A stretch of DNA of 64,000 bases from Wenzhouxiangella sediminis (GTDB lineage Bacteria > Pseudomonadota > Gammaproteobacteria > Xanthomonadales > Wenzhouxiangellaceae). The DNA is taken from NCBI RefSeq assembly GCF_003410055.1, contig NZ_QUZK01000052.1:1-64000 (forward strand), in the 5' to 3' direction. Shown here piece by piece: positions 10,112 through 29,752 of this stretch. Position 1 is the stretch's first letter; the number at the start of each line of letters is the position of its first letter. The position numbers were made by a program, and so were the translations under genes. A model generated the notes under the pieces. The model saw only the letters and a list, made by a program, of their open reading frames with translations. It was not told where the DNA came from and did no database searches.

Positions 10112-10140
10112 GGTTCAGGTTTCAGGTATCAGGTTTCAGG
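10112..10140 (+). repeat. heptamer array GGTTTCA-type between gspG and gspH
   Basis: Four successive 7-bp units (GTTTCAG with one T omitted or one T replaced by A in two of them) begin 12 nt after the gspG stop. No inverted partner array lies nearby. It belongs to the same sequence family as the arrays at 29.4, 35.9 and 36.9 kb. It sits inside an operon, so it is transcribed. Confidence 0.85.
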
Positions 10141-10151
10141 GGTGGGCATCG

Positions 10152-10619
10152 ATGAAATGGCTGCCGGGCCTTCGCGCGGGTGGATTCAGCCTTCTCGAGC
10201 TGATGGTCGTGATGCTGATCGTGTCGATGCTGTTCGCCGTGGTGGGTGTTTCGGTCAGTCGCTCCATCGAGGGCGCGGAGATCCGCAACGCATCTCGTGA
10301 GATCGTCGCCGGCATCCGCCACACCCGCGGCCAGGCCATCATCCAGCGCCAGCAGCAGGTTTTTCATGTCGATGCCGATGCCAGGACCTGGACGGCCGCC
10401 GGGCGTGAACCGGTCAAGATTCCCGAAGGCCTCGACATCACCATCGAGACGGCGCGCTCGGAACTGACCGGCGAGAACGCCGGCGGTATCCGCTTCTATC
10501 CCGACGGGGCCTCGACCGGCGGTTTCGTCGAGTTGCTGGCCAATGAACGCACCTGGAAGGTCGAGGTCTCCTGGCTGACCGGCGAGGTCAGCCTCGAGCA
10601 GGTGGCCGACGATGCTTGA
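10152..10619 (+). CDS. gspH: minor pseudopilin GspH
   Basis: Minor pseudopilin of the type II system. The 11-residue leader with two basic residues ends at Gly11|Phe12 (GFSLLE), then a hydrophobic helix (MVVMLIVSMLFAVVGV) and a soluble domain with the GspH-type FYPDGASTGG stretch near the C-terminus. The length (155 residues) is normal. The stop overlaps the gspI start region. Confidence 0.92.
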   Translation: MKWLPGLRAGGFSLLELMVVMLIVSMLFAVVGVSVSRSIEGAEIRNASREIVAGIRHTRGQAIIQRQQQVFHVDADARTWTAAGREPVKIPEGLDITIETARSELTGENAGGIRFYPDGASTGGFVELLANERTWKVEVSWLTGEVSLEQVADDA

Positions 10620-11151
10620 TCGTCGTTCCTTTCGCGCGGGTCCCGGGTCGGGGCTTCGAATGCCTGCGGGGGTGCGTCGGGAAGGTCCCGGATCGGGGTC
10701 CGGGACATCCTGCCGGCGGAGCCGGCAGGATGGCTTTACGCTGATCGAGGTGATGGCGGCCTTTATGGTCTTCGCCCTGTTGTTCGGTGTGGTCCTGCAG
10801 GTGCTTTCGACCTCGGTGGGCAATACGCGCCTGTCCGGCGAGTACACCCAGGCGGCGCTTTGGGCCCAGTCCAAGCTCGACGTGCTCGGCCTGGATGGGA
10901 TGATCGAGCCGGGCGTCACCCAGGGCAGTTTCGACGACACCTATGACTGGACCATGGAAATCAACGAAACCGAAGTCGTCGACGAGCGCGCCCTGGATGC
11001 CCAGGACGAGTTGCCGATCGCGCTCTACCACGTGCGCCTGACGGTCGAGTGGGGCGAGGGCCGCCGCCAGGCGGTGTTCGAAACCCTGCGTTCGGTGGAC
11101 ATTCACTGGGAAGAACGCCAGATGCAGATGGGCGGCGGGCCGCGGCCATGA
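10612..11151 (+). CDS. gspI: minor pseudopilin GspI with an extended repeat-derived leader
   Basis: Minor pseudopilin that joins GspJ and GspK in the pseudopilus tip. The mature part starts at Phe42 (FTLIEVMAAF) and is a normal GspI. The leader is 41 residues instead of the usual 5-10. Its second half (EGPGSGSGTSCRRSRQDG) is encoded by two adjacent hairpins at 10685-10731 that recur in gspJ and in an intergenic repeat. ATG 10612 overlaps the gspH stop by 8 bp. ATG 10660 is in frame and would still leave a leader of 25 residues that includes the hairpins. No start codon lies between the hairpins and the cleavage site, so they are translated. Confidence 0.9.
   Translation: MLDRRSFRAGPGSGLRMPAGVRREGPGSGSGTSCRRSRQDGFTLIEVMAAFMVFALLFGVVLQVLSTSVGNTRLSGEYTQAALWAQSKLDVLGLDGMIEPGVTQGSFDDTYDWTMEINETEVVDERALDAQDELPIALYHVRLTVEWGEGRRQAVFETLRSVDIHWEERQMQMGGGPRP
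10685..10731 (+). repeat. double-hairpin repeat module inside gspI
   Basis: Hairpin 1 has 8-bp perfect arms (GTCCCGGA 10685-10692, TCCGGGAC 10699-10706) and loop TCGGGG. Hairpin 2 follows with no gap: 11-bp perfect arms (ATCCTGCCGGC 10707-10717, GCCGGCAGGAT 10721-10731) and loop GGA. The module is in frame and ends just before the prepilin cleavage glycine. Confidence 0.93.
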
Positions 11152-11939
11152 GGGCGTGGCGTCGGGTTTCAGGCAGCGGATCCCGCGTTGGGCCGGCACG
11201 GCGCGTTCAGGAAGGTCCCGGATCGGGGTCCGGGACGCCCTGTCGGCGTCGCCGACAGGGCGGCTTCACCCTGATCGAGGTTCTGCTGGCCATCGCCCTG
11301 GTGTCGATCATCATGGCCATGGCCTACGGCGGGTTCCGCGCCAGCGTGCGCGCGACCAAGTCCGGCGAGGAGGTCATCGAGCAGACCAATCGCCTGAGGG
11401 TGGTGCAGCAGTTCGTGCGGCGCCAGCTCATGCAGTCGCGAGCGCTCATCATCGAGCAGTTCGAGGACGGGGAGATCGTTCGCTTCCAGGGCGATCGCGA
11501 TCACGTCCGCTTCGTCTCGCCCATGCCGGGTTATCTCAGCTACGGCGGCCCCTACGTGCAGGAGCTCAGTCTCGAGCGCGGTTCCGAAGGAATGGAGCTG
11601 GTCTACTACTACGCCATGCTCAACGGCTACGAAACCGGCGCCCTGGAAGACACCACCGACGGGCGCGTGCTGATGGAAGACATCGGGGACGGCGAATTCA
11701 TCTTCCTCGACTTCGACCCGGAGACCGGCGAGACCTTCTGGACCGATCTGTGGGAAGAGCCCGAGCGCCTGCCGCTGGCCGTCGGCGTGCTGCTCGACCT
11801 GGAATCCGATCGCGGGCTGGTCTGGCCGGACCTGATCGCGCCCGTCATGGTGGACACCAGCCAGTCGCGCGCCCGGAGCGTTCGCAGTACGCGCGACATG
11901 ATGATCCGGCAGCGCGGGGCCGGAGACTCGGACCGATGA
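11148..11939 (+). CDS. gspJ: minor pseudopilin GspJ with an extended repeat-derived leader
   Basis: Minor pseudopilin of 263 residues. The mature form begins at Phe40 (FTLIEVLLAIALV). As in gspI the leader is very long (39 residues), and its second half (EGPGSGSGTPCRRRRQGG) is encoded by the same double-hairpin module (11215-11261). The start is chosen at ATG 11148, which overlaps the gspI stop (ATGA) like the other junctions of this operon. The frame is open further upstream but lies inside gspI there. A GGTTTCAGG remnant at about 11165 links the insertion to the intergenic heptamer repeats. Confidence 0.9.
   Translation: MRAWRRVSGSGSRVGPARRVQEGPGSGSGTPCRRRRQGGFTLIEVLLAIALVSIIMAMAYGGFRASVRATKSGEEVIEQTNRLRVVQQFVRRQLMQSRALIIEQFEDGEIVRFQGDRDHVRFVSPMPGYLSYGGPYVQELSLERGSEGMELVYYYAMLNGYETGALEDTTDGRVLMEDIGDGEFIFLDFDPETGETFWTDLWEEPERLPLAVGVLLDLESDRGLVWPDLIAPVMVDTSQSRARSVRSTRDMMIRQRGAGDSDR
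11215..11261 (+). repeat. double-hairpin repeat module inside gspJ
   Basis: Hairpin 1 is identical to the gspI copy (arms 11215-11222 and 11229-11236, loop TCGGGG). Hairpin 2 has perfect 11-bp arms GCCCTGTCGGC (11237-11247) and GCCGACAGGGC (11251-11261) with loop GTC. Relative to gspI the stem differs at three pairs, and both sides have changed so that pairing is kept. Confidence 0.93.
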
Positions 11940-12829
11940 TCCCCTGCCGGTCCGGACAGCGGGGCATCGCCCTCATCGTGGTGCTGTGGATCCTGGTGCT
12001 GCTGACCATCGTGGTGGGCACCTACGCGGTCCTGGCGCGTACCGAGAGCCTGCAGTCGCGCTTCCTGTTCGACACCACCCGGGCGCGCTATGCCGCCGAG
12101 GCCGGCATTCACCGTGCGGCCTACGAGATGCGCAACATGGACATCGAGACCCGTTGGGTGCCCGATGGTCGGCCCTACACAATCGATTTCGGCGCCGCCC
12201 GGGTCGAGATCCGCATCACCGACGAGTCCGGCAAGATCGACCTCAACGGCGCCGACGCCCAGACCTTGTCGGACCTGTTCATTTCTCGCGGCATGGATGA
12301 AACCGAGGCCTGGCACCTGGCCGATGCCATCGAGGACTGGCGCGACCCCGACGAGCTGCCCCGGCTCTACGGCGCTGAAGTGGATGATTACGAGGCGGCC
12401 GGGTATCCTTACGGGCCGGCCAACGAGCCGTTCGGCTCCGTCGACGAGTTGCAGCAGGTCATCGGCATGAGCTGGGACCTGTTCCGGGAGCTGGAGCCGA
12501 TGCTGACCGTCCATGCCGGCGGTCGCATCAATCCGGCCTTTGCCTCGGCCGACGTGCTGGCGGCCAATCCGGAGATCTCCGCCGAGGATGCAGCGGCATT
12601 CGTCGAGGAGCGGCGACAGTTTCACCCCCGCGACCAGCAGGCGCTGATGCTGCCCGACGGCACGATGGTCAGCTTGCAAGGGGGTGGCCGGACCTTTAGC
12701 ATTCGCTCGCGGGCGACGCTGGACACCGGCACCTGGAGCGAAGTACAGGCCACGATTGAACTCGGTGGCGACCAGCGCGGTCGACCCTTCCGGGTGCTGC
12801 GCTGGCGCGACAATATCGAGGATCGATGA
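11936..12829 (+). CDS. gspK: minor pseudopilin GspK
   Basis: Large minor pseudopilin that caps the pseudopilus. Of 297 residues, the 10-residue leader ends Gly10|Ile11 (GIALIVVLWILVLL) without Glu at +5, as is normal for GspK. The large globular insertion contains the ESGKIDLN motif and the acidic DEL region typical of the family. The start is ATG 11936, overlapping the gspJ stop (ATGA). The frame is open for a further 780 bp upstream, but that stretch is antisense-free shadow of gspJ. Confidence 0.93.
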   Translation: MIPCRSGQRGIALIVVLWILVLLTIVVGTYAVLARTESLQSRFLFDTTRARYAAEAGIHRAAYEMRNMDIETRWVPDGRPYTIDFGAARVEIRITDESGKIDLNGADAQTLSDLFISRGMDETEAWHLADAIEDWRDPDELPRLYGAEVDDYEAAGYPYGPANEPFGSVDELQQVIGMSWDLFRELEPMLTVHAGGRINPAFASADVLAANPEISAEDAAAFVEERRQFHPRDQQALMLPDGTMVSLQGGGRTFSIRSRATLDTGTWSEVQATIELGGDQRGRPFRVLRWRDNIEDR

Positions 12830-24985: not shown

Positions 24986-25027
24986 TCGCCTTAAGCGCCG
25001 ATCGCCGAAACCGATCCACTCCATCGT

Positions 25028-25061
25028 CCCGAACCCCGAACCCCGAACCCCGAACCCCTAT
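25028..25061 (+). repeat. heptamer array CCCCGAA in the 24170-25106 gap
   Basis: About four and a half copies of the 7-bp unit CCCCGAA in direct orientation. The same unit appears at 29.6 kb beside CCTGAAA arrays, so it is a variant of one family. The TTAAACTGAC that follows, just before the methyltransferase gene, may contain a promoter -10. Confidence 0.85.
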
Positions 25062-25105
25062 CCCGAGCGGTTAAACTGACCGCCACCATCGATCGATCCC
25101 GAAAC

Positions 25106-29597: not shown

Positions 29598-29717
29598 CGG
29601 AACCCCGAACCCCGAACCCGGAACCCCTTCTTTTCCAACCCCGAACCCGAAACCCGTCATCCTTTTCCTGAAACCTGAAACCTGAAACCTGAAACCTGAA
29701 ACCTGAAACCTGAAACC
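29598..29717 (+). repeat. right arrays: CCCCGAA units followed by CCTGAAA units
   Basis: CCCCGAA-type heptamers run to about 29656 with small interruptions. From 29667 there are about seven perfect CCTGAAA units. The second block is the reverse complement of the left array at 29414-29443. Confidence 0.9.
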
Positions 29718-29752
29718 GACGCAAAGCGTCGTCCCGGACCCCGATCCGGGAC
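29718..29752 (-). repeat. double-hairpin module, intergenic copy, opposite orientation to gspI/gspJ
   Basis: On the plus strand a short hairpin GACGC-AAA-GCGTC (29718-29730) is followed directly by arms GTCCCGGA (29731-29738) and TCCGGGAC (29745-29752) with loop CCCCGA. Read on the minus strand it is the same order as in gspI and gspJ: the identical hairpin 1, then a second hairpin with a 3-nt loop. Confidence 0.88.

Follow-up and report, generated by a model that had tools for sequence, protein, structure and literature searches.

REP elements and a second hairpin in the pseudopilin leaders of Wenzhouxiangella

Results

The window, i.e. the whole stretch of 64,000 nucleotides of Wenzhouxiangella sediminis (contig NZ_QUZK01000052.1) that was analysed, carries gspH (10152-10619), gspI (10612-11151) and gspJ (11148-11939) on its forward strand. 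The open reading frame of gspI encodes an XpsI-like minor pseudopilin (NCBIfam XpsI, E 5e-21) with a prepilin motif, and that of gspJ matches NCBIfam GspJ (PRK08808, E 3e-33). The -1 glycine codons, located by the N_methyl motif, lie at 10732-10734 (gspI, prepilin cleavage site) and 11262-11264 (gspJ). Including this glycine, the leader has 41 residues in gspI (M1-G41, from the ATG at 10612) and 39 in gspJ (M1-G39, from the ATG at 11148). The original prediction set leaders of about 40 residues against a usual length of 5-10; the two leaders are indeed longer than those of comparable pseudopilins, although the latter reach up to about 25 residues with no full module.

Both leaders contain a double hairpin (hereafter the module) which ends directly before the cleavage glycine codon, while gspH of this genome has none. 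Hairpin 1 (GTCCCGGATCGGGGTCCGGGAC) is found at 10685-10706 in gspI and at 11215-11236 in gspJ, and the two copies are identical. With the GGAAG tail that precedes GTCCCGGA-TCGGGG-TCCGGGAC in gspI, the element, which we call a REP, extends over 10680-10706, and in gspJ over 11210-11236. Hairpin 2 has perfect 11-bp arms and a 3-nt loop in both copies. In gspI (10707-10731, ATCCTGCCGGC-GGA-GCCGGCAGGAT) its left arm is at 10707-10717 and its right arm, which consists of the leader codons R-S-R-Q-D, at 10721-10731; in gspJ (11237-11261, GCCCTGTCGGC-GTC-GCCGACAGGGC) the arms are at 11237-11247 and 11251-11261, the right one consisting of R-R-R-Q-G codons (all on the forward strand). The two copies of hairpin 2 differ at three stem pairs, and at each pair both sides have changed. 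The positions, the identity of hairpin 1, the perfect arms with their paired differences and the end point of the module are all as originally predicted.

The two copies of hairpin 2 are the only palindromes of the window whose arms reach 11 bp or more while the loop does not exceed 3 nt; Markov shuffles of the window contain 0.21 such palindromes on average, and two were reached in 2 of 100 shuffles. Each module is predicted to form two stems side by side (-39.9 and -42.5 kcal/mol, z -4.5 and -4.2, respectively). A weaker quasi-palindrome, CCCTGCCGGTCCGGACAGCGGGG, is present in the gspK leader (11936-11965 of the window), and it encodes IPCRSGQRG, which resembles the hairpin 2 peptide.

The gspI ATG overlaps the gspH stop region and has a Shine-Dalgarno-like AGGTGG just upstream, and the gspJ ATG overlaps the gspI stop (ATGA). 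Two further in-frame gspI starts, ATG 10660 and GTG 10672, are both upstream of the module, and in neither gspI nor gspJ of this genome does the stretch from the module to the cleavage codon contain an ATG, GTG or TTG. Likewise, there is no start codon 3' of the module in gspI of G003, gspH of G021 and gspJ of G022 (G numbers denote congeneric genomes), and in several genomes the upstream ATG overlaps the preceding stop and is accompanied by a Shine-Dalgarno-like sequence. The frame is preserved although loop and stem lengths vary among modules. REPs measure 22, 28 and 31 nt in the gsp leaders and 22, 32 and 21 nt between genes of this genome, i.e. the long-loop REPs have 31 or 28 nt in the leaders as against 32 nt in the intergenic regions. 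Since the frames are open, the starts lie upstream and the lengths keep the frame, translation through the module is supported, and with it the earlier view of a palindromic repeat translated in two pseudopilin leaders. Judging from the prepilin motif, the REP-containing leader would be removed by prepilin peptidase.

Hairpin 1 is a REP of the CGTC type, and this genome holds more than 50 further copies; exact GTCCCGGA/TCCGGGAC hairpins number 22, BLAST matches 43, and the pattern GTCCCGG..CCGGGAC has 66 sites as opposed to 2 for the reversed control pattern (the counts come from pattern and BLAST searches and retrieved stretches, and hairpins were counted in distinct contexts only, the raw lists having held nested or shared loci). 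The element has a short stem of 8 bp with a 6-nt loop (or 9 bp and 4 nt with a G-U pair) and many dispersed copies; loops of 4-5 nt have been published for CGTC-tagged REPs (PMC3733652). Nearly all of the other copies examined look intergenic, and most have an inverted partner (CGTCGCCCCGG...CCTTCC). Intergenic REPs terminate with GACG, after which comes a small hairpin (CGACGC-NNN-GCGTCG); an ordinary example of the same family is at 29731-29752 on the reverse strand, with an inverted partner and then this small hairpin. The terminal CGTC tag is found on most intergenic copies (GGGACGACG) and is missing from the copies at gspI, gspJ, nusG and a methyltransferase-like gene. A search for Y1/IS200-type transposases (PF01797) gave no match in this genome or in G022, and a RAYT/Y1 transposase was therefore rejected as the mobiliser; G003 has three PF01797 matches. 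Rfam returned nothing credible for the hairpins, and a plasmid collection gave no DNA match. Short tandem words, TTTCAGG and GGTTCGGG, adjoin many REPs (e.g. at 10115-10140, 25020-25070 and 29600-29700 of the window).

We compared 25 Wenzhouxiangella genomes with gspHIJ, i.e. this genome and 24 congeners. Seventeen of the 25 have no module, so that the gspI and gspJ 5' ends of most relatives lack it, a possibility that the original prediction had raised. The module is confined to one clade (this genome, G003, G010, G013, G021 and G022, with decayed forms in G017 and partly in G024); G023, which falls inside the clade, has none, and neither have the genomes outside it. The module is positioned directly 5' of the cleavage glycine codon of gspH, gspI and/or gspJ. 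It precedes gspH in G022, G021, G024 and G013 and is decayed there in G010 and G017; the gspI modules of G017 and G024 are decayed as well. Hairpins end at the cleavage codon in 14 of 75 gspH/I/J leaders, in none of 50 gspG/K leaders and at 0.3% of positions drawn at random from these loci, a background that is overstated because the control includes positions within modules.

An order-wide scan of 299 genomes for a REP plus pilin-start pattern detected clear modules in 6 genomes and decayed ones in two, all in one Wenzhouxiangella clade, and the remaining matches had no REP-plus-palindrome. A scan of named genomes gave two Wenzhouxiangella loci only, neither with a module. The idea that such hairpins are a general feature of pilin leaders was rejected, as the type IV pilin genes of five genomes are without them. 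In the genomes searched, the composite of hairpins 1 and 2 was found only at gspH, gspI and gspJ. The search for further copies thus had a divided outcome: hairpin 1 recurs throughout the genome, once in frame in a DNA polymerase gene, and the composite does not, which is at odds with the double hairpin being one inserted mobile module.

Hairpin 2 does not belong to the genome-wide REP, contrary to what had been assumed at first; its right arm appears to be host leader sequence. In gspI of relatives without the module the codons RQG|G are retained, corresponding to R-Q-(x) of the right arm, and one such relative has GCCGGCAGGGT|GGC, i.e. the full right arm. Because these relatives keep the right-arm codons, the right arm in gspI probably stems from the host, and the left arm would be its inverted copy. 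The right-arm codons are absent from gspJ of module-less relatives; here the right arm probably came with the module, and its being foreign to these relatives points to transfer from a paralogue. A different, type-B hairpin 2 (GCCTTCGCG..CGCGAAGGC) is common to three modules from two species and three genes (gspH and gspI of G022, gspJ of G003), therefore some arms moved as units. In gspI of G021 hairpin 2 is present without a REP, and the upstream units of tandem modules hold the left arm only (gspI and gspJ of G003, and the end of the methyltransferase-like gene at locus L240). Of the 50-odd REPs of this genome that were examined, few carry a long host-matching arm.

The pairing of a REP with host-matching hairpin sequence is also seen elsewhere. 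At the 3' end of nusG, the last codons and the stop are repeated as an inverted copy in all 8 congeners with a REP, as opposed to none of the 14 congeners without a REP. The nusG hairpin next to the REP spans the stop codon (loci L204-L209, L211 and L225), and its outer arm tracks the synonymous changes of the last codons, imperfectly in G021 and G023. G002, which is outside the clade, has its own version of the nusG REP and inverted copy. The end of the methyltransferase-like gene (named by inspection, with no family matched) has a 15-bp arm pair that includes the stop codon, both in this genome and in G003. Tandem REP units are located at this gene end in G003 (L240/L245, near 1424-1640), the upstream one keeping only the left arm of hairpin 2. 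In this genome, an error-prone DNA polymerase gene (dnaE2-like; contig C44 near 46700, L131 about 460-535) contains a REP and an imperfect 16-bp second hairpin, translated in frame. This segment is inserted as compared to two homologues, and REPs have been reported in dnaE2 of other species, too (PMC3733652). The leader is thus not the sole place where an in-frame REP is tolerated. The recurrence at genes unrelated to one another suggests that such elements may be built, and also repaired, by hairpin-copying mutations.

The stems vary in a paired manner. In the gsp set 92% of the cells are paired, with 11 double changes as compared to 3.3 in shuffles, and the covariation is 0.266 versus 0.140 (0.266 being reached in 0 of 500 shuffles; slid controls gave 0.04-0.11). 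The corresponding values are 0.220 versus 0.123 for nusG and 0.381 versus 0.161 for the intergenic hairpin 2 variants (0/500 shuffles in each case); in all of these statistics the species are related, so the changes are not independent events. In the nusG alignment a single loop base of G024 was removed manually so that the columns stay in register, with no effect on the stems. Compensated base changes number 11, as against 0.9 in a simple simulation in which the arms change independently. In the gsp set they are found between species as well as between paralogues, and concerted multi-base changes are seen in both the gsp and the nusG sets. Templated repair and selection are not told apart by covariation alone.

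Discussion

It is useful to compare the gsp elements to known repeats. Like the CGTC-tagged REPs of Di Nocera et al. 2013 (PMC3733652), they have an 8-bp GC-rich stem, multiple copies and paired inverted units, no dedicated transposase was found (PF01797 search of this genome and G022), and some copies lie in genes including dnaE2; unlike them, the copies at gsp, nusG and the methyltransferase-like gene have a host-complementary arm in place of the tag. The likeness to Rickettsia palindromic elements (RPE), drawn in the original prediction, holds in part. Both are palindromic repeats translated in frame within genes (here gspI, gspJ and the error-prone DNA polymerase), and RPE-4 and RPE-6 have been placed in the CGTC-tagged REP super-family (PMC3733652). 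However, the double hairpin does not appear to be a single mobile module, and its second hairpin is tied to host sequence in a removable leader. The coding palindromes of Nematomorpha mitochondria (PMC6649704) are likewise perfect inverted repeats in translated sequence, but there both arms encode conserved protein, whereas here one arm belongs to a discarded leader and lies beside a repeat element.

We lean, if only slightly, towards the explanation that REPs sit at gene junctions, that template switching during replication builds and repairs hairpin 2 beside them, and that the outcome is tolerated because the leader is clipped. In the ancestor of the clade a REP would have come to the gspH-gspI junction, beside the leader codons R-x-R-Q-G, and a template switch of the DNA polymerase at the REP would have copied the adjoining host sequence in inverted form. 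This would yield another perfect hairpin, with 3 nt in its loop and with the gene's own coding sequence as its outer arm. Later switches would keep the arms matched, giving paired changes without selection on RNA. Next, the module would have reached gspJ and gspH, most probably through recombination at the GGCTTCACCCTGATCGAG start that the genes share, i.e. by conversion between paralogues, and its units would have been duplicated in tandem. Since the gspI and gspJ starts overlap the preceding gene, the module would be translated and its length held in frame, and it would be tolerated because prepilin peptidase removes the leader. Template switching explains that hairpin 2 uses whatever host sequence adjoins the REP, and it is documented that one such event can yield both a perfect hairpin and compensatory changes (PMC8794818). 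The hairpins described here resemble the template-switch hairpins of RNA genes (PMC8794818) and the quasipalindrome mutations of E. coli (PMC7202029) in having an inverted copy beside its source, a short loop and paired multi-base changes; those cases concern RNA genes and E. coli sites and, among the papers found, not REPs or REP-adjacent coding sequence.

The main rival to template switching is selection at the RNA level, which we regard as possible, if unlikely. The double hairpin would then be an RNA element at the gspG/H, H/I and I/J junctions that slows 3'-5' decay or modulates translation, setting the ratio of GspG to minor pseudopilins, and at nusG it would be wrapped around the stop codon to a comparable end; selection on RNA pairing would underlie the paired changes. 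The strong predicted folds, the compensated changes in three independent sets (gsp, nusG and intergenic), the position at operon gene junctions and the nusG recurrence in two lineages are all consistent with this, as is the proposal that REPs affect mRNA stability (PMC3733652). However, several modules are decayed (gspI of G017 and G024, gspH of G010) and most genomes with gspHIJ do without, the hairpins lie within translated sequence where ribosomes would melt them, and intergenic copies covary too. A further, rather doubtful reading is that the target flank is copied in inverted form during REP insertion, by fold-back synthesis at the insertion site, so that the REP would bring an arm complementary to the target in the place of the tag. 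Guide-target pairing at the ends of IS200/IS605 elements is topologically like this arm, and if this reading is true, it suggests how tag-type REPs could spread without a transposase.

A selfish, RPE-like element in which hairpins 1 and 2 transpose as a unit, with the pseudopilin GGCTTCACC start as the favoured landing site, is in our judgement very unlikely. It would account for the like position and frame in gspH, gspI and gspJ and for the identity of hairpin 1 in the gspI and gspJ copies, but not for the restriction of the composite to these genes in the genomes searched, for the other pilin genes with a GFTLIE start that have no module, for the missing IS200-type transposase of this genome or for hairpin 2 following each host gene's own sequence. 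We find it more improbable still that the leaders are mis-read, i.e. that translation starts in or after the module, the hairpin is untranslated and the leaders are short. In the type-B modules the hairpin 2 loop does contain an ATG or TTG in frame, which would give short leaders such as MREG|G, some other modules have a TTG in the hairpin 1 loop, and Di Nocera et al. considered many N-terminal REPs probably extragenic (PMC3733652). In the type-B modules translation may begin inside, and not every module need be translated; the genes named above that lack a later start, the frame kept despite varying lengths and the upstream ATGs nevertheless argue for translation.

Compensatory stem changes are usually taken as proof of a functional RNA, and here they are found beside a repeat element in a discarded peptide. 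The gsp leader hairpins are thus a natural case where experiment can separate mutation bias from selection. CGTC-type REPs are here tied to a tangible footprint, namely an arm next to the repeat that is complementary to the host, and the nusG stop-codon case in two lineages suggests that the same footprint can be sought in other genomes.
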